Source: Chrysomallon squamiferum (lineage: Eukaryota > Mollusca > Gastropoda > Neomphalida > Peltospiridae). Taken from it: DNA of 64,000 nucleotides. The stretch is taken from the NCBI GenBank assembly GCA_012295275.1, contig CM022668.1, positions 1,263,637-1,327,636 of the forward strand, read 5' to 3'. The notes beneath the pieces are model-generated. The model was not told where the DNA came from. It made no database searches and worked only from the letters and a program-made list of their open reading frames with translations. Of the stretch, positions 24,500 to 64,000 are shown in pieces; positions within the stretch are counted from its first letter, which is position 1, and every line of letters starts with the position of its first letter. Position numbers and translations under genes: made by a program.

Positions 24500-25560
24500 T
24501 TCTCGGTTCTGAGTTAACTACTGATATACTGAGTTATTATTGTTTATAATTAACTACTGATATACTGAATTATTATTGTTTATAATTAACTACTGATATA
24601 CTGAGTTAGCTATTGTTTATAATTAACCACTGATATACTGAGTTACTATTTTTTATAATTAACTACTGATATACTGAGTTACTATTTTTTATAATTAACT
24701 ACTGATATACTGAGTTAGCTATTGTTTATAATTAACTACTGATATACTGAGTTACTATTTTTTATAATTAACTACTGATATACTGAGTTATTATTGTTTA
24801 TAATTAACTACTGATATACTGAGTTACTATTGTTTATAATTAACTACTGATATACTGAGTTATTATTGTTTATAATTAACTACTGATATACTGAGTTATT
24901 ATTGTTTATAATTAACTACTGATATACTGAGTTATTATTGTTTATAATTAACTACTGATATATTGAGTTACTATTTTTTATAATTAACTACTGATATACT
25001 GAGTTATTATTGTTTATAATTAACCACTGATATACTGAGTTAGCTATTGTTTATAATTAACCACTGATATACTGAGTTACTATTTTTTATAATTAACTAC
25101 TGATATACTGAGTTACTATTTTTTATAATTAACTACTGATATACTGAGTTAGCTATTGTTTATAATTAACTACTGATATACTGAGTTACTATTTTTTATA
25201 ATTAACTACTGATATACTGAGTTATTATTGTTTATAATTAACTACTGATATACTGAGTTATTATTGTTTATAATTAACTACTGATATACTGAGTTATTAT
25301 TGTTTATAATTAACTACTGATATACTGAGTTACTATTGTTTATAATTAACTACTGATATACTGAGTTATTATTGTTTATAATTAACTACTGATATTCTGA
25401 GTTACTATTGTTTATAATTAACTACTGATATACTGAGTTATTATTGTTTATAATTAACTACTGATATACTGAGTTAGCTATTGTTTATAATTAACTACTG
25501 ATATAATGAGTTAACAATTGGTTTAATTTTAACTACTCATATACTGAGTTACTATTGGTT
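24500..25560. repeat. 36-37-bp minisatellite, about 28 copies, with higher-order duplication
   Basis: The unit contains TACTGATATACTGAGTTA, then a variable core (TTATTG, CTATTG, CTATTTTT or GCTATTG), then TTTATAATTAAC. The order of core variants from about 24605 recurs from about 25041, so a block of roughly 435 bp was itself duplicated. Confidence 0.92.
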
Positions 25561-26163
25561 TATTAAATAAATTTCATTGATTTTTTTTATCGATTACCGA
25601 TTATTAGCTGATACTGTGAGTCAGCAGTTTTTGAAATGATTAGATTTAGATAAATAATACTTGTAAAGGAAAGGTATGAACTGCATGACAAGTTAGTTGC
25701 TATGAAATGTACACAGAAACTTTGACAGATCACAGGCTAGACACGACAGAAACGTTGATGTTTTGTCAGTTTGCTAAATAATGAACAGTAAAAGTCAGTG
25801 AGGCGAAGGACACCACTGAAACATGTAGAAGCAGACAAGTAAACCTACAATTTGTGTTGTGACAGTCGCTGTAATTGAAGAGATAGCCCGATATCTTAAC
25901 CAGCAATCTAACAAATCCCCTATTTAATGCTCCTTTATTTAAATCCTGTCTTGTTATTTGGTTCGTTCTGTTTTGTTAGGATTTCTTTGAAATCTAAAAT
26001 GTCACTGGAATTTGGATTATTCATTTTGCACTACATAGAAATTATTCAGACGAAAATTAGAGGGAAATAATACTGAATTTTGAAATTAAGATCAAAAGTT
26101 TTGGATCTCTATAGAAAAGTTTATGTGTATGTATAGTGTGAGTGTGTGTGATTGTTTGTCTGT

Positions 26164-31940: not shown

Positions 31941-32859
31941 CATTTTTATTATTATTAGTCTTATCATTATTATTTCTGAAGAAAGATTTGACCATATGGT
32001 AACGTTTCTTGTCTAGTTTTGTTTTGTTCTTAGTAAAAACGTGTACTAGTAAATATGAACAGACGTTGTTATCGAGACTCTGGCAGTTTCTTCGGGCAAA
32101 ATTCCACCTCCCGCTTCCATGAAAGGGAACGCGTATGCCGATGATAATAACTGATATTTACTTTTTCTTTTCTTATAGATCTGGTACCAGTTGATATTCT
32201 ACGACTGGCAGTTCCGAACATCCAGTCAGTGCCTCCTGGTGTCAGTATTATTTACGACAAATACAACCACGTGCATGCATTTACGTTTTCAAAGGAAGCT
32301 CACAGTCTGAGTTTCATGGCTGACAAAGTGTTCAAGCGATGTGGCTTCTTTCCGGAGGAGTTTTCACTGTTTTTAGTGCTAAGACTGCAACGACGTCAGA
32401 GACGAGAGGGTTGTATAATGTCGTTGTTCGACACAACGACGAACAGAAGTGTTATATCAGTGGTATTATCAAACAGACGTGTTATATTCCAGTACGCCAG
32501 CCAAACTCTTAGATTTCAGACGACAGTACTCAAAGATGGGGCGTGGCATACGATTGGTTTCAGCCTATCAGAAGACACTCTTGTTATGACGTCAGATTGC
32601 CATGATCGACGCAAGCGCCTAGTTAAAAGAGTTATCCCAGCATTCCTTCCTGTAGGAAATGCTTCATTTGTAATTGGGAAGTGCCGCAAACGAGTGTTTC
32701 AGGTGATTTTAAAACCGTTTATGTAATTTTAACATTTAGTACATTTCTGAAGAAAAATGTATTACTAGGTAGTTTATAATAAAAACATGTATGAACAGTT
32801 AATAAAAAGTATTTATTTATTTATATTTTTGGTTTCTTCTTCTTCTTCTTCTTCTTCTT

Positions 32860-32890
<31 letters not shown>

Positions 32891-35800
32891 TTATTATTAT
32901 TATTGTTGTTATTATTATTAAGTCGGCCTAATTTTATTTCGACTGAAAATAACTTAGAAATCTAAAGGATTTATTCTTTTTTAACTGAATACTGATTTCT
33001 TTGTTCATCGGGTTTTAATCTGATATTGTTTAGTTTTTCTTTTACTGAATAATAAAGTCTAAATTATCAATAATCTTAATTTATGAGTTTAATAACTGAA
33101 TAAAACAGTTTGTTGATTTAAATTAAAAACAGAAGTATATAAAACATGTATTTTATCAGATAATGATATAGTTAGTGTTTAACACTGGTTTAACACGTTT
33201 TATACAATACTGATTTTATACAATACTGATTTAATATATGACAAATACTATAATTTAATACGTTTTTAGGGATATGTCAAAGATATAATTTTGGTTCCTG
33301 GAGGAGACGCAACAGCTCGAGCTTGTCCCCCTAAAATTGAGTCACACCCAGAAATGAGCAACGTAGTTTCTACCTTTCCAGGTATATCTATTGTTATGTT
33401 AATTATTATATGTCCAGACTAGATACTTCGCTATTGTTATTAATCTCACTATCAGTAATTTAGTTGTAATAACAGTATTTTCATAAATTAATATTAAATA
33501 ATGATCAAGTAGATACGGTGCATTTAGTCTAAATAATTGAAGCAAGAACGCATAAAAGAGCAGATTTTCCCACGTTAACAACACAGCACGTACCAAATTG
33601 TCTAATTCGCATAATAATACATTCAAATTCAAAACTGAGCTAAGAAATTTAAGTTAAAGAAACTCAAACATGATTACTTTTAGGAATATAGAAATAAGGG
33701 TAATACGATGACGTAATAATTACTGTTTTAAAATTTAGCATTTTATCACCATGGAGTGTTTACTCCGGCTGGAGTGAAGTGTACTTGGAGTGACGTAGGT
33801 AACCTCGCTTTCGACACCCTGGCCCACCAGCTCAAAGTCTGCGTCAATGGAATCTGGCAAGAGGTCTCAGTGAGAACAGGTAATCAATCGAAGATCAAAG
33901 ACTTTTATTCATAGTTTTACCTTTAATGGTTTAATATCACGAATTTTATCTCCTTGGCTTTGTAAAACTAAAACAATGAAAAACGAAATGAATACAGAAC
34001 TTAGTCTTTATTATCTTGCTTTTGATTATATCGGTAATTTGATAGTTGTTATGCATTTTAATAACAGAAACGATGGGAGCATATTCTATACATAAATAAA
34101 ATAAATACATACATTTTACAGAGAAACGCAAACTGGATTATCTAGAAGAATACCAAGATATTGTTTTGCCTGCCAGTTCTATTGACGTTGAAATATTCCG
34201 GATACCTAAACAGGGCCTCTTTGCTATGTTTTCTTCTGCGAATTCTTCTAACAGAAAGAAGAGCTACTCTTCAGTTCTTAGATGGACTAATGGCGGATTC
34301 GAGCATTATCAGAAACTAAGCACAAATGCAGCACAATCATCAACGTTCTTCAGTATTGGAAAACAGGTAAATCTGGAGAAGAAAAAAAAAAATAATAATA
34401 CTAATAATAAAGTAAAAACAATAATAATTTTATTACATTATTGTTATTTTGTTTTGATTTGTTTTATTTACCTTCACTAGAAAAATATTAAAATAAATCC
34501 GTTTATCTTACATTTTCGATGATGTAAACAGCGTATATATAATATAAAGAAAGTCGCCAGATGTTTTAACTGTTCTTTTATCGCAAACAGCAAGATTCGT
34601 AGCCAAAATAAATAAAATAATAAAAGAGAAACCAATATTCAAAATTTATTTACATTATCGATCACCAACAATACACCTGGCAAATTGTCATAAAATTTAA
34701 AACAATTAAAAAACAAAAAAACCTGTGTAATTTCTGTTGTTAAACGCGTGGGGAATCTTTGGTTACGAGCTGAGGGAGAGAGGGGTTCCCTCGCCCTAAA
34801 ATTATTACAAGTACCAACATCTAAAACAAAATCCTTTATCTTTTTGTTTTCTGTTCTAGTTTTTATTTCTTCTTCTCCCAAAGTTTATATATTTTATTTA
34901 TAAATTTAAATACTTGATATCTTCGTTCACTAAACATCTAGATGTAACAGAGAGAAGTTTTCTAACCATTTATTTTTAAACGACGACACTGTGTGAATTC
35001 AGACTTGTGAAAACGCTGCTAAAACATGTTTATTTGAGTTTTATTTATTTCAGTTTTTCCTTGCAGTGGCAAACTACGGGTCATCACAGACTGAGTCGTG
35101 TAACTCCACGATCTTTCGCTGGAACAAGAAACGCAAAAAGTTCAAACTTTACCAAAATTTAGTCACGTGGACTGCGAGAGATTTTGAACATTTCGAAATT
35201 GATGGACAGCATTTTCTTGCTGTTGCAAATTATGAGAAAGGTAAAAGCAAATTACAAGTAATTACAGGTATGATATTCAAATAATAACTGAAAATGAAGA
35301 TAATTCAGTTTCCAGTGATCTGTTAGCTTATTTTTGCATTTTTTATTTCACAACTTTTATATTTGGGGTTAATATAAAAAAAAATGTGTAAAAAACATTC
35401 TGTATAACTTGAACATTTCGTTTTTATTATTTTTAAATATATATAAGTAATATCCCTACAGAACGTGTTGTTATCTCCGTTTTAACATAGATATCAATAC
35501 TTAGTGAACTTCATTTTAAAATGTAGTATATACAGAAAGTTACTTCAGGTGATGATACTCATATCAACTCATACATCTACGTCTGGGATGTGAAAAAGAG
35601 AAAATTTGTACAACATCAGAAAATAATGACAATAGGAGCGTACGACTGGACGTACTTCATGGTCAGCGGGTTTCATTTCTTGGCGCTGGCTAACGCCTTC
35701 AATGGAATGTCCACTCTGCTCTATTCCGTCATCTACTTCTGGCAGGATGGTCAGTTTGTCATGTTTCAAACTATGGAGGTACGTATCAGTATTCTCACAG

Positions 35801-35938
35801 TCACATATACATTTTCAAACGATCTAAAACTGAGGTTTCTTCGTTTGGACTTGGTCATATGGTGACTTTATTTCTAACATAACTATGCTTTACAGTTCAT
35901 TACTTTTTTTCGTTTTTTTTTTTGTTGGATTTTATTTT

Positions 35939-35985
<47 letters not shown>

Positions 35986-36945
35986 GCTTTCTATATTTAA
36001 TATTTGAATTCACTACATTCACATCTGCAGCTTCGAGTGCAAGTCTTTCAATAAATCTAAATCTCCTACAGCAGATGTTAATAAACATTTTTACAATTAA
36101 AGGTGAAAAGTATTTAATACCTGTAGAACATCAAAACAAAGTGAGAATGTTAAACTAGTTAACTAGCTTTAATTAGATTGTTAGAGTTTCAAATGAAGTA
36201 CAAATATTAAAAATTATTAAACTAACTTCATTCGAATTGTTAGTTTAAAATAAATTAAAAATATTGATTATAATTGAACTTTAATTAAATTGTCAGTTCA
36301 AAACAAAGTTAAAATATTAATCATTATTAAAGTAATTAAATGTAAAAGTATTACTGCAGACAAATGGTGCTACGGACTGGGAATATTTCACCATAAAGAA
36401 CGACGTCTTCCTTGTGGTAGCCAACGCCTTCAACTACGGACCTCAGAACTACAAGGACATTGACACTTTCTATACGAATTCGACTATTTACAGACTAAAT
36501 ATCAAAAAGAAAATATTTGAAAAGTTTCAGATCATCCCGACCTACAGGTATGTTTTTAATATTTTTACTTAACACTAAAATAGTTTTAATAAAACATTAA
36601 TTGGGAGATAACGGTCTAAGACCAAACTCTCTGTAACATTTACAAGTTGTAACAAGTATTAAAATATTTAGTATATTATTTCAGAACTGAATGTAATAGT
36701 TTTTCATGTGTTTAATGTCGCATAAACGGACAGGTACACTGCAATAATGTTTGGTGCTCTGGTGTATCTCCTGTAACTATGTTGAGATGATCCCTCGCGT
36801 TCTTCGCGCTGAAGTACGTTTTTGTAGAACTTTACCAGCGAACTTGAAAATGACAGATCTAAACGAATGTAAAGCCACAATTAATTATTAAATTAGTATA
36901 GTAGTTCTCAACTAAAAATCAGCCAAAGATCATAAAAAAAAAATG

Positions 36946-36983
<38 letters not shown>

Positions 36984-37562
36984 GAAGTAAAAAGGAGTAA
37001 AAAAAAAAAAAATAAAAAAAAAAAAAATAAATAAATAAATAAAATAAAATAAAAAGGAAAAAATAAAATAAAACAACAACAAACCGCTCCAGGATACAGA
37101 CCTATCTCTGGCAGAAAACATCCACATAAATGTGAGTCCGAGCTGTTCTCAGCCAGAGGAGATAGTAGTGGCTAAGGGGAGATAATTCAGATTTATAAAT
37201 GGTTATATTCCCGATTCTCATAAATAGACAGTTATGCTAACGCGCATACACATTACACACAACATCGTCATATTTGTACTTATGAATATTAATTGTTTTT
37301 CAGTGCTATTGACTGGGAATATTTCAGTGTAGGCGGAGATCATTTCCTGATTGTATCAAATGCACAAAATGGCGGAACTGAGAGACAGCTGGACAGTGTT
37401 GTGTATCGATGGCAGGGACTGGACAAATTCGTTCCAGTTCACAGTTTGGTAACACTACCAACAGCAGACTGGGAGTCGTTCACGATCAAAGATGACGTTT
37501 TTCTGATATGTGCAAATGCTAAAGATACTACCTCTAAAGTTGTCAAAGTTAGGTTTACTTAG
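26330..37562 (+). CDS. TSPEAR-like secreted protein: laminin-G/TSPN-like domain plus EAR repeats
   Basis: Complete coding gene, about 660 aa (human TSPEAR is about the same length). Exons: 26330-26426, 32179-32702, 33270-33381, 33739-33879, 34122-34366, 35054-35240, 35549-35778, 36360-36547, 37304-37562 (stop TAG). All junctions are GT-AG and keep frame. The start ATG heads a hydrophobic signal peptide (CIFVISVLWIQSNLA). Residues about 33-245 form the laminin-G-like sandwich (KDGAWHTIGFSLSED, FVIGKCRK). From about residue 290 to the end are EAR/EPTP repeats, each with a D-W-E-x-F strand, a FL-x-x-AN strand and an Ixx-W strand, for example AIDWEYFSVGGDHFLIVSNA. EAR repeats are predicted to form an extracellular beta-propeller that binds other proteins. 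In vertebrates TSPEAR acts in ectodermal organs; the role here is unknown. Confidence 0.9.
29627..29692. repeat. (CA)n microsatellite
   Basis: Dinucleotide run inside the intron of the TSPEAR-like gene, followed by ATATAC units. Confidence 0.95.
30313..30369. repeat. (TC)n microsatellite
   Basis: Pure dinucleotide run in the same intron; the poly Leu-Ser frame is an artefact. Confidence 0.95.
31870..31940. repeat. (TTTA)n then (TTA)n microsatellite
   Basis: Tetra- to trinucleotide run in the first coding intron of the TSPEAR-like gene. Confidence 0.95.
32833..32904. repeat. (TTC)n then (TTA)n microsatellite
   Basis: Polypyrimidine triplet run in the intron that follows the laminin-G exon of the TSPEAR-like gene. 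The TTC part is a homopurine/homopyrimidine tract. Confidence 0.95.
35941..35983. repeat. Poly-T tract of about 43 bp
   Basis: Uninterrupted T-run in an intron of the TSPEAR-like gene. It could be an old retroposed poly(A) tail on the other strand, but no element body was recognised next to it. Confidence 0.9.
36945..37078. repeat. (AAT)n and A-rich tract
   Basis: AAT microsatellite followed by an A-rich stretch with AAAT/AAATA units in the last intron of the TSPEAR-like gene. Confidence 0.9.
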
Positions 37563-38117: not shown

Positions 38118-38324
38118 TCATGGGTTACACTTGTACAACGCAAACTGAAAGAGAAGAATTAAAATTATCAGCCTCATTCTAGTTAACAAGTTATACAAAG
38201 TCAAAACGGTTACGATAATCGTAGATAATTATTATTAAACTTTTTTTTTTTTTAAATTTAAAAACAGAAAAGTTAAATGAAAAAGAAAACAAAACGTGTG
38301 TCGAAAAATATTTTAAAATAAATA

Positions 38325-38359
<35 letters not shown>

Positions 38360-38763
38360 TTAAGGTGAGAAAAGAAAAAGTAACGATTGTAAAAAATAAA
38401 AATAAATAAAATTATTCACAAATGGACAGCAAAATACATTTATTAAAATAAACAGGAAACTAAATAAATGGACAAAATTTAAAATCAAATCAAACAAAAT
38501 GAGAACTCACTTCATCCAGATCTCCGTGGAAATTAGAAAATCCATCACAGGATGCAATTGTTAAAGCAGCTTGTCTCTTTTCAATGTCTCCTGCAATACA
38601 CAACAGAATAATTTAAACAACATAACCTTTTTCTAAGACTAAAGAATATTTTGAAAGTTAATAAATACTGACAACATTGATTTACAATAATACAACTGAA
38701 ATAGATCTGAAAAGAAATGTGTCTCTGTTCCTGTAACGATCTCTCTGTCTGTGTGTGTATCTA

Positions 38764-38799
<36 letters not shown>

Positions 38800-41700
38800 A
38801 TTAATAATGAACATACCAGATAAAGGAACAGATCTAATTAATAATTAACATACCAGACAAAGGAACAGATCTTTTGGCGCCGTTCACGACTCCTGTCAGG
38901 TAGTTACCATCATACTGAAGTTCTATATCATTGAAACCATGTTTCTGTCAGAAAAAAGGAAGCAAATTGTATTTAATACAACATTACTTTTAATGTATTG
39001 TTAATAATAATAATACTGAGTTAATATAGACGAGACAGAAAGAGAGAGTGAGTAAAAAAGAAAGAAAAAAGTAAGAAAAAGAAAAGAAAGAAAAGGAAGG
39101 TAGACGATTAACTTTACTTACTGCAGCCATAGACAGTATGACGGCTTTAGCGGTATTTCTCGTCTTAAGAGAAAAAATTATTTCTTGGTCGTTGGCAAGT
39201 ATCATTATAGAAGCGCCACGCTTCATTTTCCCCTCGCAGTTCGCCACTAATGTTTGGTGTTGACCATGTTGCCATAGTGATCGCATCTTGGAGTTCCATT
39301 TCACCTGTCTTCTCAGTCTCCTCGATGTGCCTCTGATAGGAATCAAATCATACTGGAGAGGACCGATGTACGTACGGTTAACTTGCACGGAGCCTGGTAT
39401 TACTCGCTGTATTTTAACTTTACTGCCACCAAATATTCTGCCCTCTGCTCCGCCTCCTCCAGTATTTCCAGCCCCGAAGCCGGGTTGTGTTTGGGTTTTA
39501 ACTTTTATTTTATGTAGGCCTGGTGGAAATCCACTGCCCGTCCTAACTTGACCTTTAGAATCAACAACCGTCCATTGTGAATTTGAAGTTAGTTTAGACA
39601 AGATGTCAGCAGGGATAGTTCCTGTGCCAGTTTTCACTCTACCGTCTTCTAAGACAAAAGACCATCTAGAAAATATTTTACCACTTTCTGCGCCAGCACC
39701 GTCATTCCTGTTTCTGGCTGTATTAGCCGAGAAAGCAGAACCATCCAGTAATTCTGGAGGAATCTCACCAACTCCTCTTATAGGTTTTCCGTCTGGACTC
39801 AAAACAGTCCATCGCGTGGAGGCACCCTGGATTTTCTGCAGCACGTCTGTGGGTATTGGTCCTGTTCCTGTTCGCGATGAACCATCCGGTAGCGTAATTG
39901 TCCACTGCTTTTGTATTTTCGCGTTATGTACACCAGGAACGGAACTGCTTCCGCGAACAGGTTTTCCTTGACTTAACTGTCCAGGCTTGGTATTAATTTG
40001 TTGTAGTATGTTTTGTGGGATGGAACCTTTGCCAGATTTGACTGAGTGATCTGGCAGAGTAATCGCCCACCTCACTCGCTGACCGCGAACTTTCTGGAGA
40101 ACGTCTTGTGGAATCGACCCAGATCCAGAACGAACTGACCCGTCTTGCAGAGCTATCGACCAGCTTCCAGGAGACATGACGCTCTTCTGGACAACTCCGC
40201 CTATTAAGGAACCAAACTGGGACGCGTTTGTTTTTCCTGTTTTTCGTTTCACACCATTAGTCAGTTTAAGAATGTGTGCTGGGATGTTTCCAGTCCCACT
40301 TTTCTTAAAACCGCGCGGCGTCATTATCATCCACTCTCTTACATTGTTTAGAAATTGTTCAGGAATTTCCTCAATCCCAGTGTGAACCTTCCCGTTTGAA
40401 AGTACTATTCTCCAGAACGTCATTACTGGTTTCTTTGTGACAGTTTCAGGAGGTTTGACGAAAGGTCTAATGTCTGGAGCGGAGTCATCAATTAAATGAC
40501 GTGGAAGAGAACCAGATCCAGTTTGAGTCGTTCCGTCAGACAGTGTAACGACCCACTGTGTGACTCTGTTAAGCACTCTAGCAGGGATATTTCCAGTACC
40601 CGTTTCTACAGTTCCATCGGAATGTGTAATTCGCCATACTTTTTGGCGCGTTATTTTTTTTGGTTGGATTGGTCTGTCATTAATTCGTGTTGTGCCTCTC
40701 AGAGCACGCGCCATAACATCAGTTGGTATAGCACCTGACCCTGTTTGTACCTTGCCGCCCGATGAAATAATTTGCCATCTGATAGTTCCACCTATTGTCA
40801 TCTTCATTATTATTGCTCCTTTACTTTTCCCTGATCGTATCGCTTCTACAACAATTGCTGGTGCTCGACCAGTTCCTGATTTACCATGAGAACCATCAGC
40901 ATTGATAATTAACCATTTCTCAAGATTAGGGCCGCTGTGAGGAACATGTTTGGTTTTAATGATTGTTTGAGAAGTAGTCTTTGGCGTTGTCGTTGTTACA
41001 CTTTGAGGATCAATGAGAAACTGAATCCTGTAGAAGATATCAGAGGGGACAACACCAGAACCTTGGTCTCGCACCACACCGTCCGGATCTACCAGCTTCC
41101 ATCCCGAGGTTTGTCCATTGAAACCTATTCGTTTTAGAACCGTCCATGATGTTCTGTATCCAACATTCTCATCTGAAGGTACTGAGTCACCAAATCCAGA
41201 CTGGACTATTTTGCCATTCTTAATCATGTACCATTCCTTTAAATACTCTGAATATTTGCCGCCAGTTTCAGGATTCGTTTTAACTAGGTCTAAAGGAAAT
41301 TTTCCCGTTCCAGTTCTAGTTCTTCCATCCGGTGTTTTAATGGTCCATGTAACACGTTCTTTTTCGACTGACTTAACAATGTAGCGCGGTATACTGCCGA
41401 CGCCTGTGTGAACAGTTCCGTCAGACATGATTACTTTCCACTGGATTCCGACCTGAGTTTTGTTATGAATTTTTATGTTTGATTCATAGGAAAACTGGTT
41501 CTGTAACTGCTTTAGAACATCTGTCGGAATCGAGCCACGTCCTGTGTGCACTACTTGACCAAACGAATTTATAATTTCCCATTTCCCTTCTCTGCCTTGT
41601 GAATCAACTCTCTGTCTTACCAGAGAACCTTTTATTTTGCCTTCCGCTAAATGTCTGAGAACTGAAGCAGGAGGGTTGCCAAAACCTGACTTTATTGCAT

Positions 41701-44390
41701 TTCCGCCTGGTCCAATGATAAACCACACCAAACCACCATTTGGGTGTTTGACGCTGGTGATATATTGCAGTATGACATCTCGGGTTAATATTCCGCTGCC
41801 TGATTTGACTATTTTCCCATCAGACCCAATGATGTTCCATTTTCCACTACCTCCATTTGAAGGAAGCACACGAGTGACTAAAATGCCTTTGAGAGTTTCT
41901 CGTTGAAGTTCTTGTAATATTTGTTTTGGTATTTTACCATTTCCTGATTTGCTCAATTTTCCATCAGTGGTATAAAGATACCAAACTTCATTGGTTCCGT
42001 CTCCTGGACCAAAATTTGCAATCAATTTTAAAACAGTTTGGTCAGTTTGTCCTGAACCAGTTTGAAGAACATTTCCGTCAAGCCCTAATATCTGCCAAAC
42101 TGTACCTTGGGGTGAAACGATCTCTCGGCCAAGTGATCCGTGTATTCTTCCATCTCTGATCCCCTCGATGACTGATTTAGGAACTTCTCCTGTGCCAGTC
42201 TGAATGATTCTACCTTGCAGATCGACCACAAACCATAGAGTATGGTTTACATTAGTCGACAGTCCTTCTTCTCGGTATCGCAGATGAGTAATTACATCTT
42301 GTGGAACATGTCCAGTTCCCGTCAATTTTACATTCCCATACCTGTCAAGCACCATCCATTTCTTTGGGACACCATTATATCCTAATACTTCTTTGACAAT
42401 AAAGCCACGGATGATTCCATGCTGTAATTGTTCTTGTATATCTAGTGGAATATCTCCTTCCCCAGATGTAATTACAGTTCCATCATTTGCATAAATATAC
42501 CATTTCAGTAGTACGTTACCGTTTGGTTTGAAGTTTGCTATCTGCATCATTGTTTGTCCGGTTATTGGCCCAAACCCGGAATGTAACACACTGCCATCCA
42601 AACCAATAATCTGCCAAATCGTTGTTCCGTCCACAGTGGACACAATCTGCCTGGCAAGAGTGCCAGTGATGGTTCCTTGCTGCAGGGCTCGAAATATATC
42701 AATAGGTATTTGTCCATAACCTGATCTTGTCACTTGTCCATTGGCTCCAATAATCATCCACATGGTCTGACCACCTCCATTGTCGCCAACGCCAGTACCG
42801 TCCATCTTGTACCTTATCCTTATGGTCAGTTTTTGTCCGAAGTCTGTGCCAGAAAATGACGGAATGGTCATCTTACTTGTTCCATCAAAATGACCGACAC
42901 CATGACCTATGATTTTCACTCCTTCTGCTACTGCCTCTATGTTGTTTCCTGAGCTGTCCTTGGTGTTCTGATCAAACGTGTAGTGGACCGTGGGGAGACA
43001 GGCTGCAACAGGAAACCTCACAATAAACACACAATCGTTTGATAATAAGTAGCACAGTTTTAATAATAAACTTTATATATATTTAGTATTATTATTATTA
43101 CTAGTGGTAGTAAAAGTAGCATTAGTAGTATAGTAATAGAGGTAGAAGTACAAACAACTGTAAAACAAAGAAAATGTTTATGTTTTTGAAGACTGTTGGC
43201 TTTAAAAGTTAATAAACTACTACTACTACTACTACTATTATTATTATTATTTTACACACGGTAAAGTGTTCATGCTTACGTCCATTCGAACTGGTGTCCG
43301 TATCTTTGATACAGCTGCAGTGTGGGTAACTGAAAACTGTGCCGGGTGCGCATGGGCGGACCATACTTCCGTGACCCGGGATGCTCTGAACAAACTTCCG
43401 TTTGTCTTTGTGAGCCTTTAGCAAACACGTATCTGACAAGAGACGTTTTTAATCTGGTTATACACACATCTGACAACTTTTAGTTCATAGTTATTTATAG
43501 CGAAGAAGTTGTGACAGATATTTCAGATGAGAAACATACATTTCATCGAATACAAAATGAAACAGCCTAACATGTTAGAATTTTACTAGTCGATCGCTGA
43601 ATGAATGAATGAATAATATATGTATATATGTATGTATGTATGCATGCATGAATGTATGTATGTATGTATTATACATGTATGTGTATATCTGTGTGTGTAT
43701 ATATATATACATATACACAAACACACATATACAAACGTGTACGCACACACAGATACACGCATAGACACACAAACACACACATACATAGATATATGTATGT
43801 ACATCATTATGCAGTTTTGTATCTTTGAAGGTAAAACAAGCGACCTGTGACTGATTAACGGTTGAACTATAAATCTCACTTTTTAGATTTTCTGTTGATA
43901 CGGGAGGACAGTCGTCTCGACATGAGGAGTCTTGGATACACCCCATCTGATAGACGAACCGTGACCCCTGGGGGCAGCACATCGGCACTGAATGACTCTC
44001 CTGACAAATGAGATAAGATCGACACCCATAGCCTCGATATGGGTGAATTTGATTTTCAGTGCTGTTAAGACATTTGTCTGAAATGTGACGTAAATATGAT
44101 TATTTCAAACATTTACTGAGATTAACAGAATGAAACAAGTGTAGAGGTTCATTTATGTAAACTAGATATATATTTTATTTCTTCCTAATCCAACGTATGT
44201 TAATAATAAATTATGATAATTAAATATAAAATAAATAACAAAAAATACAACATAAACAAAGAAGCAGGAAGGTGGTTCATATATTGTCTTTTCTTTTGTT
44301 TAAAAAATAAGATAAAATAATAATAATAAAAATGAAAATAATAATAATAAAAAAATAATAATAATAAAAATAATGATGATAATAAAAATG

Positions 44391-44431
<41 letters not shown>

Positions 44432-45026
44432 AATAGATAAATAAATTATTCTGTTTAAGAAATAAGTCAAAGATTTTCAGTGGCTTTCTATAGTAATACT
44501 ATATTACTATTATTATTATTATTTATGGAAATCTAAAATGATAATAATAAAGAGGATTGTGAAAACATTCAGTCGGGTTTACCTGCCGCGCAGTCCACTT
44601 CCTCTGCCGGCCTGCACGTGACAGAGTCGCGATCCCAGAAGAGCCCGAATGGGCAGCGCTTGATGAGTGCTCGGAACCTCGTCTCGTCTCGGTAACACTG
44701 GATGTACTTGCTGCAGTCTCCGGGGTAGGGATTGTAACCTATTCCGTTGTCAATTTTACACCCACTACATAATTCTGCAATAACATTAAGACATTCGTGT
44801 TATATAGTTTTGCATCATCACTGCATTAGTGTAAACTGTTTTCTTTACTATCTGTCTTGTTACCGTAAAGTCTGGGGAGGCATCAGTAACATGCACCGGC
44901 TTTGAGCCCACTCTGGCTTAGACAAAAGGCGATCTCGAATTTCTTGCCCAATTCTACGTGATTTTTGTATTCATACTTATGAAGGTGCTATCGACTGAGC
45001 AATATTTCTACTTTGGAAATATGAGA

Positions 45027-45073
<47 letters not shown>

Positions 45074-45771
45074 ATACATACTCTCCGACGCACACACACA
45101 CACGTACAGAACGGAGTGTTGCATGACACTCAGTCGTCTAACAAATGGGAGTCTGACACCTCTAAGTTGTGTACTTTACTTACGTGGAATGTTCGGAGCC
45201 GGTGTTGTTGTTATAGTCGGCGGTGGTGTTATAGTCGTTGTTATAGCTAAAACAAAACAACAGAAAATTATCCAGAAAAAGTGCCTCGCGTTTTCTACAG
45301 TTATTTTTATTATTACTGAACTATGTTGTTACTAATAAATTAATATATTCAACCTTGGGTTCGATCACAAAACGTATATAATATATAGTAAACAAAAATA
45401 TGAAATAAGAAAACAAAAAATAAAACAAAAAAATAGATAAATAAAATTTATTTTTTAAAGTAACTCAAAGAAAACAAATAGACGTACACAATTTTGTTAC
45501 TCTATAAAACAAAGTTATGATGAAATTTTAAGTATGAACCACTTTGAAAATAGGTACCTCAAGGACATCACAAACATCTGTTTCTTTAAATTATGCTATT
45601 TCATCATTATCATCATCGTTACTATTATTATTATTACTATTACTATTATTATTATTATTATTATTATTAGTTTTTTATTCATTATTATTATCACTATTTC
45701 TATAATTATTATTATTGTTGTTATAATTGCTACTACTACTATTACTACTATTAAACTACTACTACTACTAC

Positions 45772-45828
<57 letters not shown>

Positions 45829-47936
45829 TAAAGCACTGACCAGTACAAATAAGATCTTTCATGACGTTCACGAGACCAAACAGAGCGTTGAAATCAGCAA
45901 CTGGAAACACTTTTCTTCTGGAAGAAGCGATGTTGATGAGTTCATCAGTCATGGCGTGAGAGCTGATTCCTACAGCAATCATGATGATTCCCTCGTCTTT
46001 TGCAGCTTTGGCCTGGGCTTGGGTCTTGTCGGTGTAGTCGCTTTGGCCGTCTGTTATCACTATGGCAATCTGGGGAACCCCTTCAGAACGCCGACCTTGT
46101 GACGTCATCATTTCACGTACTTTCGCGATTCCCTTGTTAGTGTTCGTCCCAAAACCTGGTTGTTTCAAAGTTTTCGTCAGCTGCACAAGCGTCCTTTTGT
46201 CCTTGAATGGCATCAGCGGAACGACGTCGCCTATGAAGGTGCTAAAGACGACTATACCAACGTGAATGGTTTCCGGATGAATATGCAGACTGTTGATGAG
46301 AGTTGCCACGAAGTGCTTCTGTTTGATCCAGTTGTGATCCTCGATGCTGTGCGATGCGTCGAGAAGAAAGACAATGTCAGCAGGCATGTCACACGCGATA
46401 TCTGTAACATTGTACACTTCAGTCAGTTCTTTCATGTACACACTGACTCCATACACACTCAACTCATACGTACGTATATATATATATATATATATACGCA
46501 CGCACACACACACACATTAATTCATTCATTAATTTATTTATATTATTTTCAAAAAGAGGATAAAATTTGTACTCTATATTTTACCGGTTTTTTATTTTTT
46601 ATTTTTTTATTTTGATTTTTTTCAATTGTTTAACAGAATTACACGTTTATTATATACTGAACCTGGTGGAGGAATCAGTGTTACTGTCGTTGTTGAGGCA
46701 GTGGTCGTTGTTGTCATGACAGTTGTACTGCGCTCTGTAAACAGAATAATTTGCACGTAATTATTAGAAGAAGAAAAGTATAAAAGAAAAAGAAAAACAG
46801 AAAAAGAAATTCATAAAGCTATAAAGCCAAAAAATTATATAAACCGCTTTTTTTTTTGCTTTTTTCTCTACAGATCTGGATTCTTAAAAAAAAAAAAAAA
46901 AAAAATCCTCGTTAATTTCCAAGATTAGATCCGCTGTGAAATAATTTAATTTAAAACCACAAATAAATAAAAATAAAAATAAAAATAAAAATAACCTGAA
47001 CAGATCATGTCTCTGATGAAGTACACCAAGTTTGGCAAACTTCTGAAGTCCTTGACGCTGAAGGCGTGACCTTCTGATGCGATGTCGTTCACTTCAGTAA
47101 TGAACAGACGTGCAACTCCGACAGCGATCATCGTGATCCCTTCCTGTTTAGCTAGCAACGCTTCCTGTTTGGTTTCCGCGGGCAGACTTGACTTTCCGTC
47201 TGTAACAACAATTCCAAAGTGAGGCTTGTTCGGTCTGCCTTGGCTTCGCAACATCATCCTCAGCGACTTTATACCCAGCGCCGTGTTGGTGTCGTCTCGA
47301 GGTTGTGTCAGATTGCGAACCATTCTCTTAATCGTCTCTTTGTCCTTGTACGGATTCAGACTAATGATGTCGCCGATGAATCTGCTGAAGACGACAGCGC
47401 CGGCGTGGACAGCGTATGGTTGGATATCAAATGAGTCGACTAACATTTCAACGAAAGTTTTCACGTAATTCCAGTCCTCGGACTCGATGCTCAAACTGCC
47501 GTCGAGAAGAAAAACCACGTCAGCCGGCGCGTCGCATTTACTTACTGAGAAAAACAGAATAATTTAATATAAAAAACAACTGAATAAGTTATTATAATAA
47601 ATAAAAACTGACTGACAAACGTTTAATTAAATAACGTTTTCTCTAATTAATTAGATTAATCAATATTCGAACTAAAAATAACATCTGATAATAATGAACT
47701 CATGAATATTTTATAGGATATCGCAGGACACCATCTACAGCAAATTGAACTTTGTCTACAATTAACTTCTAAGACAAAATATTTATCAACTTTAAAAATT
47801 ACTGTTTTAAGTGAGTGCAGTTGTTTTCTGCTTTTAACACTAAGATTATAAAAAAGTTGATATAAAAAATATTACTTTGACAGTTGACGGTGCTGAACGT
47901 TAACGCCAGGAGCGTCAAAATGAAATGTGCGCCCAT
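38118..47936 (-). CDS. Pif/BMSP-like shell matrix protein: VWA x2, chitin-binding x3, laminin-G split by a novel repeat array
   Basis: Complete secreted protein, about 1975 aa. Exons, 5' to 3': 47936-47876, 47544-46996, 46734-46663, 46401-45841, 45246-45184, 44774-44583, 44077-43880, 43432-43280, 43002-39122, 38944-38854, 38590-38511, 38144-38118 (TGA). Every join is GT-AG and in frame. Residues 1-19 are a signal peptide (HFILTLLALTFSTVNC). VWA domains at about 23-203 and 230-414 have MIDAS DGSLS and DASHS with TDG motifs. Two Thr/Pro-rich linkers follow them. Peritrophin-like Cys modules lie at about 436-499, 500-565 and a degenerate one at 566-616. The laminin-G domain starts at about 620, is interrupted at 698-1777 by about 26 repeats, and resumes to the C-terminus (YDGNYLTGVVNGAKR; final YKCNP). 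VWA + chitin-binding + laminin-G in this order is the Pif/BMSP layout of mollusc shell matrix proteins, which bind chitin and calcium carbonate. That role is inferred here. Confidence 0.9.
38797..38871. repeat. Tandem duplication spanning a splice donor
   Basis: Two adjacent copies of about 36 bp (TAATTAATAAT...ACATACCAGAYAAAGGAACAGATC) differ at a few bases. The copy nearer the exon contains the real donor of the exon 38944-38854 of the Pif/BMSP-like gene. The second copy carries a decoy donor 36 bp downstream. Confidence 0.75.
39308..39322 (-). other. Possible furin-type cleavage site RRLRR
   Basis: Residues about 1844-1848 of the Pif/BMSP-like protein read SRRLRRQV, which fits the R-x-[KR]-R proprotein convertase pattern. 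It lies between the repeat array and the second half of the laminin-G domain. Known Pif precursors are cleaved into two chains by such processing, but at another place. Function is unproven. Confidence 0.45.
39521..42763 (-). repeat. Coding array of about 26 W..I...DG.V.TG.G.IP.DVL repeats
   Basis: This part of the large exon of the Pif/BMSP-like gene codes about 1080 residues of diverged tandem repeats. Each repeat has a core of about 25 residues: Trp, a hydrophobic strand, [DN]G, [ST]G-x-G, [IV]P, then a short amphipathic helix-like [DN][VI]L..L. Examples are KWNIIGSDGKIVKSGSG and SWSIALQDGSVRSGSGSIPQ. Spacing alternates between about 30 and 40-60 residues. I do not recognise the unit as a named domain. 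A beta-hairpin plus helix fold is a guess from the pattern. Confidence 0.9.
43575..43800. repeat. (TATG)n/(CA)n mixed repeats in an intron
   Basis: Degenerate ATGT, GTGTA and ACACAT repeats between the second and third chitin-binding exons of the Pif/BMSP-like gene. Long frames here on both strands are repeat artefacts. Confidence 0.85.
44315..44440. repeat. (AAT)n-rich repeat in an intron
   Basis: Imperfect AAT units ending in AAATA units, between chitin-binding exons. Confidence 0.9.
45029..45063. repeat. (GT)n microsatellite
   Basis: Dinucleotide run in an intron of the Pif/BMSP-like gene, about 120 bp downstream (in gene sense) of the second Thr-rich linker exon. Confidence 0.95.
45606..45830. 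repeat. (ATT)n-rich repeat beside the second VWA exon
   Basis: About 225 bp of ATT/ATC/ACT units starting 10 bp inside the intron from the donor of the second VWA exon. Open frames that run from the VWA exon into poly-Asn/Ser are read-through of this intron. Confidence 0.92.
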
Positions 47937-47951
47937 GTTTCTTGTGATAAC

Positions 47952-51706: not shown

Positions 51707-53152
51707 TCAGCTCAACAGTTTTTGATGTATGTGTTGTAAGTCTGTCGTTGTTAAAGTCTCGCTATAAAAAATTCTCATGCACATCTCGCGGTCCCGAACA
51801 TCCGTCCAGCCCCCGTAAGGCTGGTCCAGCTTAAAGCGAACTGGGAAATCATGGGCAATGTTAACGTGGTTAGGAAATAAGAATTTCTTGTTTTGCTCTA
51901 ATTTGTTTCTGACTCTTTGCAGAACGTCTGTCGTTTTACACGACTTGTTTTGATGAAAGCCTTTACAGCTACCTAAGTGAAAAACTCGACTGCCTAAAGG
52001 TTTTAGTATTTTCAAGCCTCCTGGTATGCACGTGGCCGTCACGTGCATCAGAGACCAGTCCCAGTTACAGTCATCAAAAAAACAGAACGATTTTGAACAG
52101 TTTTTCAACATTTCCCAGAAGTCTTTGCGGAATGCCATGCCCCTTCCGTTTCCGGCCCACCAGTAATCTTTTTTTGCATCTCCTAATCTGTAGTTGTCGC
52201 GGAAGTAGTCTGTCGACTCCCCCATTACATACATTTTACATTCCGGACACTTTCTTCTGCTTTCACTGTCCAGTTTTTTTAAATAGTCCAGTGTATCCTC
52301 TGCTAAGTAGTAATCATCGTCTAGACGAAATATAATACCTTTATAATTTCGAAGTAATAAACATTCATCAAAAATAAATCGCAGTTTCCACAACCAGTGG
52401 TGTTTAAGTTGGGCGTGCGGCGCTTCTCTGTAATGTCCAAACGGGTCTTGGAATTCCGCGTTGTTACACTTGATGTGTCTCGCTACTGTTTTATCCAAAT
52501 TGCGAGCACAGTCGTTGGGATCGGTCCCAGGAAACTGTTTGCTGTACACCTGAATAGGATACGGGTAAAATATCTGCATATAGGGGCAGAAATCTATCTG
52601 TCTGATCACTTGGAAAACGTCGTCGGAGAAGTAGTCGTGGCTGAAGATGACGAGTGTTTCGTTGATGTGTCTCATTTCACGAAAAGAATCAATCTGCATT
52701 TTCAGCTGGTCCGCGCGGTCATGAACTTGTACTAAAATGACTACACTCTGAGGCGTCAGGCTCAGGCCAAATCTGTCTTCATTGTGAACAAATCCTTTTT
52801 CGTTTAAAATCTCTACTTGTTGTCTGAACTTTTCCACATCTTTCCAGTCGGGAATGAACGGAACAAACTTACCAGCTGCTTTCACTGTCGAGTTCAAAGT
52901 TCTCACGTGATAAACTGTTTCTGTCACTGTTTCTCCACCGACTGTGCTGACTCCACCCTTGTCTGACAGTCTGACGTTGTGGTTGACTGTCTCGACGTGA
53001 ACGTGGTGGCCGTCTCGGTGAACGCGCGGAGACAGTTTGTTCTCGCTGTTCCAAAGAGCCGATGATGTGTAGATCCGCAACTTCAGTCCAGCAAAAACCA
53101 CCATACAGAGGTACAGGACAAACAGCGTCGTTTTCTTCGCCGATAACCTCAT
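51707..53152 (-). CDS. MGAT2: MGAT2-like N-acetylglucosaminyltransferase II, intronless
   Basis: Alpha-1,6-mannosyl-glycoprotein 2-beta-N-acetylglucosaminyltransferase (GnT-II) of the Golgi, which adds GlcNAc to the second arm of N-glycans so that complex glycans can form. 481 aa from the first ATG (MRLSAKKTTLF); the frame extends upstream only through GTG, so 53152 is the start. Residues about 9-28 are a single hydrophobic segment (type II anchor), then a stem. The catalytic domain shows VVILVQVHDRADQL, LVIFSHDYFSDD, DPFGHYREAPHAQLKHHWLW, DDDYYLAED (metal site), FFDDCNWDW, FHLGSCKGFH and GGWTDVRDREMC. Human MGAT2 is also intronless in its coding part and about 447 aa; the extra length here is mostly in the stem. 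The metal-binding triplet is DDD where vertebrate enzymes have EED. Confidence 0.93.
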   Translation of the reverse strand: MRLSAKKTTLFVLYLCMVVFAGLKLRIYTSSALWNSENKLSPRVHRDGHHVHVETVNHNVRLSDKGGVSTVGGETVTETVYHVRTLNSTVKAAGKFVPFIPDWKDVEKFRQQVEILNEKGFVHNEDRFGLSLTPQSVVILVQVHDRADQLKMQIDSFREMRHINETLVIFSHDYFSDDVFQVIRQIDFCPYMQIFYPYPIQVYSKQFPGTDPNDCARNLDKTVARHIKCNNAEFQDPFGHYREAPHAQLKHHWLWKLRFIFDECLLLRNYKGIIFRLDDDYYLAEDTLDYLKKLDSESRRKCPECKMYVMGESTDYFRDNYRLGDAKKDYWWAGNGRGMAFRKDFWEMLKNCSKSFCFFDDCNWDWSLMHVTATCIPGGLKILKPLGSRVFHLGSCKGFHQNKSCKTTDVLQRVRNKLEQNKKFLFPNHVNIAHDFPVRFKLDQPYGGWTDVRDREMCMRIFYSETLTTTDLQHIHQKLLS

Positions 53153-53537
53153 CTTTTCACTAAACACTGTGCGCTATGATCTGTCAAAACGCAGAGTTAC
53201 TTTTCAGTCAGCTTTCACATTTCATCGACGATTTCTTCAAGAAAGGAGCTCACCGACCAGAATAAATCTGTAACAACAAAATATAAAAAAAAATAATAAT
53301 AATAATAATACATTTCGTATTACCTCAAAAGTTACTATTCATTAGAAATCATAATTTATATGCACGTATGCATGCATGCACACATTTCAAAACATTATTT
53401 AAAAAAAAAAAAATGTCCAGCTTCACACGAAACTGAATAACAAAGTTCTTAACCGCTTAACGTATTATTATAAGCCTATTTATGACTGTCTCAACCTTTT
53501 TAATATTAAGCGCATCATTATAGCAACAGGTGAGAAA

Positions 53538-60689: not shown

Positions 60690-61466
60690 ATATTTGAGTT
60701 ATGTTGTTATATTTATGTTTGAGTTATGTTGTTATATTTATGTTTGAGTTATGTTATTATATTTTTTTAGTTATGTCCTTAGTTATATTTAAATGATTTT
60801 GTTATATTTATTTTTGAATTATATTGTTATATATGTTTGAGTTATATTTATGTCAGTGTTATGTTATGTTTATGTCAGAGTTATGTTATATTTATGTCAG
60901 AGTTATGTTATATTTATGTCAGTTATGTTATATTTATGTCAGAGTTATGTTATATTTATGTCAGTTATGTTATATTTATGTCAGAGTTATGTTATATTTA
61001 TGTCAGAGCTATGTTATATTTATATCAGTTATGTTATATTTTATGTCAGAGGTATATTATATTTATGTCAGAGTTATGTTATATTTATATCAGTTATGTT
61101 ATATTTATGTCAGAGGTATATTATATTTATGTCAGAGTTATGATATATTTATGTCAGAGTTATGTTATATTTATGTCAGAGTTATGATATATTTATGTCA
61201 GAGTTATGTTATATTTATGTCAGAGTTATGTTATATTTATATCAGAGTTATGTTATATTTATGTCAAAGTTATGCTATATTTATGTCAGTTATGTTATAT
61301 TTATGTCAGAGTTATGTTATATTTATGTCAGAGTTATGTTATGTTTATGTCAGAGTTATGTTATGTTTATGTCAGAGGTATGTTATATTTATGTCAGAGG
61401 TATGTTATATTTATATCAGTTATGTTATATTTATGTCAGAGTTATGTTATGTTTATGTCAGTTATT
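60690..61466. repeat. 22-bp minisatellite (about 28 units) with diverged leader
   Basis: The unit GTTATGTTATATTTATGTCA plus GA varies in length (20 or 22 bp) and at a few sites. A related TTTGAGTTATGTTGTTATAT-type repeat precedes it from about 60690. The array ends about 13 bp before the stop codon of the ShKT gene on the other strand, so it would lie in that gene's 3' UTR or just past it. The long + strand frames are repeat artefacts. Confidence 0.92.
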
Positions 61467-61478
61467 TTATTACAAAGT

Positions 61479-62488
61479 TCAAGAGCACACAGAACATGAT
61501 CGCCTGCAGCTAGTCAGCATGTAGTTGGGGTTGACCTGACATTCACCACGTTGTGCCCACGTGGCACACATGAAGTGGTTATCAAAACACGACAGATCCG
61601 CTGAAACAAACAGAAAAGCTAAAATATTTACTAGTGAATTGTATTCGATTGTAGTTTATTATTTATTTGTTTTTGGTATGCAAATTAGTATAATTTAATT
61701 TAATTTGATAATGTAACATGAATCATTTAAAAATAATATTTATTATTAATTTATTTATTTAATGAGCATGAGCACTCATGCACACACACGCACACGCACA
61801 CACACACAACTGAAAAAAGTATTATTTACTGTTTGTACTGCAAGCATCGCACGACAGTCTGCACGAACTGAGCATGTACGCAGGGTTGGATTCACATTCT
61901 CCCGTCTGAGCCCACGACACGCAGTTTCTGTTACTGTCCGCACACACAGACGTCTGTGTGCCAGATGCTGCGGAATTTACAGCTGTGAAAATATAATTAA
62001 CTTCTTTACTACTTAAAGACAGTACGTGAGATAATTAAATAAAGCAATTAAAACATAACGTTTTATTATGAACAAAAATTTATATCATAATTTAAGAAAA
62101 ATAAAAGGAGAGAACATCTGCTGCAAATCAGTGACAAAGAAGAACTCACAGTCAGAACAGCGGTTACACGCTCGTCGACAGGTTGTCGTCATGAACGTCG
62201 AGTAGGCGCGGTTGTTACAGTAGTTTCGTCTCGACCAGTAACCACAGTAACCGTTCAGATCTTTACACGCTCGCGATCCTGAATGTTACACATACCACGT
62301 GATTAATAACGTTACCATACAGTTAATCGTAACCAAGTTTACATTTCACTTCTAAAGTTGTTTATCGTCTTCATTATTATTATTATTATCATCATTATAT
62401 CATCATCATTATTATCATTATCATTATCATTACCATCAACATCATCATCATCATAATCATCATTATTATCATTATATCATCATCATCA

Positions 62489-62540
<52 letters not shown>

Positions 62541-62844
62541 TGCTTTCCTCGCAAGCATGACGGGTTTGAAATAAATAATTTTTGCTAAAACTCTTCCAAA
62601 CAAAGCCTTGCTCTTTTCTCATTCTTAATTATCTTGCCCAAGGGAAAATTCTAAAACTGACATCACAATGTAGACATTTTTCTTATCGCTGGGCGAGACA
62701 GGTTTAAGAAAAAGTGAAAAAATAAAAATAGCTTGACTCACAAAACTACGATGTTAATACAGCATTTCTTTTTAAATCACTATTGATTTTAAAAAGTTTG
62801 AAAATATAAAATATTGGTCTGGAATCTCTTCAAATTATTTCAAA

Positions 62845-62903
<59 letters not shown>

Positions 62904-63642
62904 TAATAATAATAATAAAACAGAAGAGGAAGAAAGCGTGAGTTGACAATAAATAACTTACCACCAGTCTGACATTTTCTACACGATTTCTTACAATATG
63001 ACAACATGTATGCTGGGTTGTTGTTGCATTCCCCGATTCTAGCCCAGTAAGAACATCTTGAATTCTGATCTCTACACGTTCCTGTAGATAAAATACACAT
63101 CACAGCTGATAATAAGCAAACCAGGCAAACACTAGCATGTATCCATATATGTATGTATCTATGTATGTCTAAATGTATATGTTATTTTATTTTATTTTAT
63201 TTTATTTTTTAATTTTTTAATTTTTTTAATTATTATTTTTAATTTTTTTATTTTTTTATTCTTTATTTATTTATTTTTTATTTATTTATTTATTTTTTTT
63301 TTAATATTTTTAAAATTTTTTTATCCCAAATTATGCAGTTGTGTTTAGAAAAATAAAAAAGAAAAACTCCACAAGAAAAGATTAAAGAGAGAACATAAAA
63401 GTTACTTGTGCCAGTTCCTGTTCCTGTTCCTGTCCCTGTCCCCGTTCCGGTTCCGGTTCCTGTCCCCGTTCCAGTTCCGGTTCCTGTCCCTGTCCCTGTC
63501 CCTGTCCCGGTGCCTGTCCCCGTCCCTGTCCCTGTCCCTGTGCCGGTACACAGACTGTACGGAGTGCCCGGACACCAGCACTGACAGTCTTTTCCTACAA
63601 AACCTTCTCCTGGACACTCCGAGTCGTCTTTCCTACAGTGCG
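61479..63642 (-). CDS. Secreted ShKT-repeat protein with Thr-Gly repeat (3' part; possibly astacin-like)
   Basis: Exons, 5' to 3': 63642-63406, 63081-62962, 62278-62150, 61982-61830, 61600-61479 (TGA); all GT-AG, all phase 1. The upstream part lies beyond 63642 or outside the window. The first visible exon has a Cys-rich motif, CPGEGFVGKDCQCWCPG, then about 23 Thr-Gly pairs. Each of the next four exons codes one ShKT domain with six cysteines, for example CSYWARIGECNNNPAYMLSY and CATWAQRGECQVNPNYMLTS. ShKT domains occur in secreted animal proteins, often C-terminal to astacin metalloproteases, and need not be toxins. From memory the CPGxGFVGKDC motif also occurs in mollusc astacin-like proteases, but no catalytic domain is in the window, so this is a suggestion only. 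Confidence 0.82.
62371..62540. repeat. (ATT)n/(ATC)n mixed microsatellite in an intron
   Basis: Imperfect CATTAT/CATCAT units followed by pure ATT, in the intron between the first and second ShKT exons. Confidence 0.92.
62850..62918. repeat. (AAT)n microsatellite
   Basis: Trinucleotide run about 45 bp from the donor of the first ShKT exon. Confidence 0.95.
63182..63310. repeat. (TTTTA)n/(TTTA)n-rich tract
   Basis: Imperfect T-rich pentamer and tetramer repeats between the Thr-Gly exon and the first ShKT exon. Confidence 0.85.
63408..63546 (-). repeat. Coding 6-bp repeat (GGNACN)n giving Thr-Gly dipeptides
   Basis: About 23 hexamer units inside the first visible ShKT-gene exon. Third positions vary while the Thr-Gly pattern is kept. 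It separates the N-terminal Cys-rich motif from the ShKT domains. Confidence 0.9.
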
Positions 63643-63659
63643 CTGCGTTAAAGTGAATA

Positions 63660-64000
63660 CATTTAAACACGACATTGGACGTATAAGCAAAACAAAAATA
63701 AAATAAAATAAATAATAATAATAATCATAATAAAAAGTAAAAAAATAAAAGAATAAGAATACAAAAAAGGTTTGAAATATTAATAATCATTTTAACTTTA
63801 ACGCGTTTATGGAAAACAATAAGTTGTTATAAAAATAAGAAATTAATGAAGAAAACAATTAAGCTAATAAATAAACAATTAAACAATCAAACAACAACAA
63901 AAAATAAAAATATAAATAAAAATATAAATAAAAAAATAAATAAAAATAAAAATAAAAATAAAATAATAAAAAAAAAATAAATAAAATAAATAAAATAAAT
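63660..64000. other. A-rich window edge, no exon seen
   Basis: Within the intron upstream of the first visible ShKT-gene exon. AAAT-type repeats dominate the last 120 bp. Confidence 0.6.

Follow-up and report, generated by a model that had tools for sequence, protein, structure and literature searches.

What is the long insert that divides the laminin-G domain of a candidate shell protein in Chrysomallon squamiferum? We addressed this question in a 64,000-nucleotide stretch of the genome (GCA_012295275.1, contig CM022668.1, positions 1,263,637 to 1,327,636 of the forward strand), hereafter called the window, whose own numbering is used throughout. The window is AT-rich and carries on its minus strand a gene whose product is, judging by its domains, most likely a gastropod Pif/BMSP-type protein secreted into the shell matrix. 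The insert spans about 1,180 residues and contains 26 units of an unnamed repeat, which is modular, conserved and followed by an R-x-R-R site. A split laminin-G domain with a long insert is already known; this repeat and the site behind it seem to be new within the searches described here.

Gene model and divided laminin-G domain

The gene starts at 47936 and stops at 38118. Its 12 coding exons encode 1975 residues and are joined in consistent phases at GT-AG junctions, which were picked by eye using as a guide the protein of Gigantopelta aegis (LOC121387883, 2024 residues; P0001). The N-terminal half comprises a leader, a VWA domain, a Thr linker, a second VWA domain, a Thr/Pro linker, a CBM_14 domain, a CBM_14-like domain with a cysteine doublet (within VPMCCPQG) and a third Cys-rich domain. 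It is followed by the N-terminal part of a laminin-G domain, the 26 repeat units, a tail, the motif RRLRR and the C-terminal part of the laminin-G domain. The features are as follows.

47876..47951, minus strand: exon 1, ATG at 47936 and hydrophobic leader (putative signal peptide, judged by eye)
46996..47544, minus strand: exon 2, VWA domain 1 (Pfam VWA, E 3.9e-34)
46663..46734, minus strand: exon 3, Thr-rich linker (exon model)
45841..46401, minus strand: exon 4, VWA domain 2 (Pfam VWA, E 4.3e-36)
45184..45246, minus strand: exon 5, Thr/Pro linker (exon model)
44583..44774, minus strand: exon 6, chitin-binding peritrophin-A domain, CBM_14 (41.0 bits, cutoff 22.1)
43880..44077, minus strand: exon 7, second CBM_14-like domain with the Cys-Cys doublet (19.7 bits, under the cutoff of 22.1)
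43280..43432, minus strand: exon 8, third Cys-rich domain (nothing matched in Pfam; identical to Gigantopelta at 41 of 49 aligned positions)
39122..43002, minus strand: exon 9, laminin-G N-terminal half, 26-unit array, tail, R-x-R-R site and start of the laminin-G C-terminal half (open frame and junctions)
42800..43002, minus strand: laminin-G N-terminal part (profile of the joined halves, alignment of the published N-terminal segment)
39494..42775, minus strand: 26-unit array (unit list and unit profile)
40931..41002, minus strand: Thr-rich linker between units 14 and 15, splitting the array into two blocks (read from the unit list)
39308..39322, minus strand: RRLRR, furin-type R-x-R-R site (no other R-x-[RK]-R occurs in the window protein)
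39122..39265, minus strand: laminin-G C-terminal part, first piece (Pfam profile)
38854..38944, minus strand: exon 10, laminin-G C-terminal part (exon model)
38511..38590, minus strand: exon 11, laminin-G C-terminal part (exon model)
38118..38144, minus strand: exon 12, end of the laminin-G domain, FALYKCNP-stop (exon model)

Exon 9 lies in a minus-strand frame of 1360 codons without stops (38990-43072), and its AG/GT junctions delimit 3,881 bp that hold the whole array; the two remaining forward frames of the exon contain 87 and 74 stops. An earlier note, made from the DNA letters alone, had described one 3.9-kb exon followed by three small exons ending in YKCNP, and the frame, the junctions and the final exon agree with that description. 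The interval that it gave for the array (39521..42763) takes in nearly all of the units.

We observed the architecture of the Pif/BMSP family, as the earlier note had proposed: two VWA domains near the N-terminus, CBM_14 and CBM_14-like domains downstream, and an insert after the N-terminal laminin-G part. The cysteine doublet belongs to the same pattern, being described in PMC3374290 for the second chitin-binding-like domain of Pif, BMSP and Lottia relatives. Tandem VWA domains, chitin-binding domains and a long insert splitting laminin-G at the equal place are shared with the BMSP subfamily, which according to the text of PMC11291548 (Shimizu et al. 2024) comprises bivalve BMSPs, Lottia Lgi140660 and a mantle-expressed C. 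squamiferum protein, Csq193_7.17. Bivalve BMSPs have four VWA domains, whereas Lgi140660 and the window protein have two, the gastropod type. Two VWA domains are not diagnostic alone, since Lottia Lgi236719, which lies outside the clade, also has two (PMC11291548). The scaly-foot genome paper reports high pif expression in the mantle of Chrysomallon (PMC7142155), and Lottia shell proteins that are possibly BMSP pieces are described as abundant in the shell (PMC3374290).

The laminin-G domain was assessed with its halves joined and apart. Joined, the halves of the window protein matched Laminin_G_3 with an E of 6.6e-6 and 26.8 bits, whereas the C-terminal half alone reached 17.8 bits and the N-terminal half alone matched no Pfam family; this rise on joining counts for a split domain. 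Furthermore, the published N- and C-terminal laminin-G segments were aligned to the proteins, and each score was compared with the best of 300 shuffles. The N-terminal segment falls at residues 654-684 of the window protein, directly before the array (73 against a shuffle maximum of 48), and it takes the same place in the Gigantopelta protein (61 against 44) and in a Haliotis asinina protein annotated as 'mucin-19-like isoform X2' (P0003; 75 against 42). The C-terminal segment scored 55 against 49 in the abalone protein and is correctly placed in all three proteins. All three proteins have one cysteine in the N-terminal part and three in the C-terminal part. On this sequence evidence the split domain is accepted, with the C-terminal part as the weaker half.

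The earlier note knew of no such array within a laminin-G domain. Inserts at that place have in fact been published: according to the text of PMC11291548, 34 of the 50 Pif/BMSPs examined contain laminin-G pieces, the domain being complete in 2 of them, and the inserts measure 138-1,438 residues. What stands of the claim concerns the repeat itself, as the unit is unnamed in the Methods, Results and Discussion of PMC11291548 and in the literature found, mostly represented by titles and the starts of abstracts. The main text of PMC11291548 compares the inserts by amino-acid composition and low-complexity regions, which differ strongly between subfamilies, whereas the insert of the window protein is an array of conserved tandem modules.

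The repeat array and its relatives

The 26 units were enumerated by their conserved W...DG...G.G pattern, partly with a regular expression and partly by eye, and used to build a hidden Markov model, so that its count of 26 in the window is by construction. At a domain E of 0.1 or below, the model found 26 units in the Gigantopelta protein, 26 in an ENA sequence (P0002), 18 in the H. asinina protein and 18 in an abalone-like sequence (P0004), the weakest scoring 5.5 bits in P0002; 20 shuffled versions of the exon protein gave no unit. The 26 enumerated units agree with the approximately 26 copies counted in the earlier note. Mean identity among the window units is 40% (local alignment). Similarity peaks at offsets 4 and 8 among units 1-10, a four-unit super-period of about 173 residues, while from unit 11 onward the best scores are those of immediate neighbours.

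The insert is free of cysteine, and the array is neither Asp-rich nor of low complexity: aspartate and glutamate make up 7.3% of its residues and lysine and arginine 12.0%, with an isoelectric point (pI) of about 10. All four third bases are found among the glycine and the proline codons of the unit cores (for glycine, GGA 35, GGT 23, GGC 15 and GGG 13), and such variation at glycine codons is what selection on the protein would lead one to expect. Structure prediction, a check that the earlier note had suggested, gave a predicted strand-strand-helix(-strand), or beta-beta-alpha(-beta), fold for the unit, with a mean predicted local distance difference test score (pLDDT) of 81 across five units. 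Searches of Pfam, NCBIfam, PHROGs and the PDB returned weak matches only, in keeping with the note's description of the unit as unrecognised.

Our protein search yielded at least four relatives; it was limited by length, and a lack of further matches is no evidence of absence. A search of 319 candidates recovered P0001, P0002 and P0003. The closest among the matches listed was the Gigantopelta protein (58% identity, 100% of the exon covered). P0002 and P0004 hold this exon alone and extend a few residues beyond its end. Gigantopelta is a member of Neomphalina, and Haliotis is a member of Vetigastropoda. Like the window protein, the H. asinina protein has three Cys-rich or chitin-binding domains, the N-terminal laminin-G part, units of the same repeat, an R-x-R-R site and the C-terminal laminin-G part. 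It differs in its smaller number of units, in being an isoform without VWA domains, and in an interruption of the array by about 450 residues of low-complexity, Gly/Thr-rich sequence.

Window and Gigantopelta units are reciprocal best matches at equal rank in 25 of 26 cases, with 446 of 676 residues identical in the unit cores and 205 of 416 between them. Between the window and H. asinina, a collinear pairing of 18 units, which was read from an alignment and hence chosen after seeing it, scored 73.8 against a random mean of 41.7, and none of 20,000 shuffles scored as high. Shuffling within halves gave the same result (0 of 20,000), and the corresponding tests of Gigantopelta against H. asinina gave 0 and 1 of 20,000. 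Window units 9-12, 19, 20, 25 and 26 remain unpaired, and over the first eight units a shift by four scores as well as equal rank (74.3 against 72.5). By these comparisons, both the array and the period of four units appear to predate the divergence of the vent-snail and abalone lineages, while one-to-one orthology of units is unsupported. Being common to vent snail and abalone, the array would be an old part of the protein.

P0003 and P0004 are 83% identical across their aligned part. Their unit stretches share 651 of 720 residues with 10 gap columns, and the low-complexity stretch (residues about 660-1080 of P0003) shares 273 of 383 with 101 gap columns, that is, it diverges faster than the units. 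The abalone shell protein CLC_303 (three chitin-binding domains, a ConA-like domain and repeats, as described in PMC6003135) might be this abalone protein or a relative. Scans for short words gave no further relatives: a prokaryote genome scan with MMQIANF, the one array word covered, and [IL]GHGVGHF from the N-terminal laminin-G part returned 165 stretches with none confirmed, and a viral contig scan with two patterns from that laminin-G part, which do not cover the array, returned 70 stretches with none confirmed.

Putative processing site and competing explanations

All five sequences contain R-x-[RK]-R at a single place, between the array and the C-terminal laminin-G half; the chitin-binding part is included in the window, Gigantopelta and H. 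asinina proteins, to which the single-site claim for the whole protein applies. This site, which the earlier note did not mention, lies at the C-terminal end of the array. Judging by the motif, a furin-type protease probably cuts here, which would leave the array on the VWA/chitin-binding part. Pif of pearl oysters likewise combines a VWA and chitin-binding part, a split laminin-G domain and an R-x-K/R-R processing site. However, Pif has one VWA domain and an Asp/Lys/Arg-rich insert, and it is cut at RMKR into Pif97 and Pif80 (PMC11291548). The window insert is instead modular and Asp-poor, and in the three longer proteins no R-x-K/R-R lies between the VWA/chitin-binding part and the insert.

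The anatomy, with two VWA domains, CBM_14, two more Cys-rich domains and an insert of 26 homologous units at the published laminin-G site, is directly evident in the predicted protein. From it we propose a chitin-anchored Pif/BMSP-type protein with a folded, basic interaction arm and a furin-type cut after the array, a proposal that we consider somewhat probable as a whole. The protein would be held on chitin by its chitin-binding domains, and its VWA domains would dock other matrix proteins, both as reported for Pif, for which VWA partners are given in the text of PMC11291548. The array is predicted to fold into small beta-beta-alpha(-beta) modules strung one after another; as a long arm, basic and free of cysteine, it may project from a laminin-G loop. 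Such an arm could present many similar surfaces to acidic partners, namely acidic matrix proteins and polysaccharides that are sulfated or acidic, and would then act as a scaffold or spacer and not as a crystal binder rich in Asp. Cleavage at R-x-R-R would keep the array with the VWA/chitin-binding part and turn the C-terminal laminin-G part into a second chain, which might remain attached through the fold or a disulfide.

Several observations weigh against this proposal. The gene model is drawn from genomic sequence. The joined laminin-G halves fall below the Pfam cutoff of 27.6 bits in the window, reach 20.7 bits in Gigantopelta and do not match Laminin_G_3 in H. asinina; the C-terminal segment scores 46 against a shuffle maximum of 50 in the window and barely exceeds it in Gigantopelta (47 against 46). 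The cysteines of the chitin-binding and laminin-G domains add up to an odd number (19 + 4), so a disulfide between the halves is speculative. With predicted template modelling scores (pTM) of 0.51 and 0.55, packing between units is uncertain, and the two-unit model becomes poor towards its end, where the last three blocks have mean pLDDT values of 50-64; the arm is therefore a guess. Window and H. asinina units are reciprocal best matches in 7 of 26 cases only, several of them out of rank, and the H. asinina protein as annotated has no VWA domain. Finally, binding of acidic partners is inferred from charge alone, and the scaffold role from charge and modularity only.

Could the array instead be the gastropod counterpart of Pif80 or BMSP100, binding calcium carbonate directly and guiding crystal growth? 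On our reading of PMC11291548 and PMC3374290, it sits where Pif and BMSP have their CaCO3-binding C-terminal product. In Pinctada Pif inserts, Lys (17-19%) and Arg (10-15%) are abundant as well as Asp (PMC11291548), so that basic residues alone are no argument against such a role. However, their 21-26% Asp differs sharply from the composition of the array, and the R-x-R-R site places the array on the VWA/chitin-binding side; we regard this explanation as unlikely. The same composition runs counter to the mineral binding suggested in the earlier note, as far as an Asp-driven mode is concerned, and the array may bind mineral in other ways. Chitin and other matrix proteins, also named in that note, are candidate partners of the array. 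About equally doubtful is the idea that the laminin-G halves never reassemble, the C-terminal part being discarded after cleavage and the array forming the C-terminal tail of the protein. The position of the R-x-R-R site in all five sequences and the weak laminin-G similarity, including the missing Laminin_G_3 match in H. asinina, would fit it. Against it, window and Gigantopelta share 75% and 73% identity in the N- and C-terminal laminin-G parts, above the array (60%), their four cysteines are kept in all three proteins checked, and both published segments exceed their shuffles in H. asinina.

That the repeat belongs, in diverged form, to a known small fold seems less likely still. The best lead is UPF0339/YegP (DUF1508), a family of small bacterial and archaeal proteins with one or two copies, which shows a weak register match, W..L...NG..(I/V)..SG, but no significant match in sequence or structure. 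YegP has a strand-strand-strand-helix order. All matches lie within noise: six profile-profile comparisons gave E of 0.14-0.39, unrelated proteins reach equal scores, and DUF1508 is not listed among the Pfam families for 21 modules, a search in which HMMER filters drop most matches above E 0.1. A last alternative, in which the array just happens to be open in frame and is removed by splicing or left untranslated, would fit a gene model drawn from genomic DNA, but we consider it very improbable. The frame is open, P0001 and P0002 show amino-acid conservation over the length of the exon, P0003 and P0004 carry this array too, third codon positions vary, and the NCBI gene models of Gigantopelta and H. 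asinina include the array.

Other features of the window and significance of the array

The neighbourhood contains several other features. On the plus strand, 32151-37562 holds frames that match Laminin_G_2 (E 6.8e-5) and EPTP (E 9.2e-20) and converge on the 3' end of the shell-protein gene; presumably they belong to a TSPEAR-like gene. A single open frame of 488 codons at 51710-53173 (minus strand) encodes MGAT2, N-acetylglucosaminyltransferase II (Pfam E 2.7e-114). ShK-like domain frames occupy 61482-63181 (minus strand; two tested, E 2.7e-8 and 7.9e-10), and upstream of them a hexanucleotide repeat gives a Gly-Thr dipeptide run at 63290-63724. Tandem arrays lie at 24514-25563 (1,050 bp, 29 copies of a 36-bp AT-rich unit, 94% match) and at 60841-61461 (22-bp unit, 64-bp higher period).

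For the family, we tentatively suggest, with less than even confidence, that gastropod BMSPs contain a new repeat-domain family: a folded, basic, cysteine-free two-unit module of about 86-90 residues, in arrays of up to 26 units, within a two-chain, furin-cut laminin-G domain. This family would predate the split of Neomphalina and Vetigastropoda and would be a fold-based counterpart of the role of the Asp-rich low-complexity Pif80. Since the insert consists of modules that are predicted to fold and that run collinearly in vent snail and abalone, single modules could be expressed, solved and tested for binding partners. Furthermore, the site after the array predicts processing products unlike Pif97 and Pif80.

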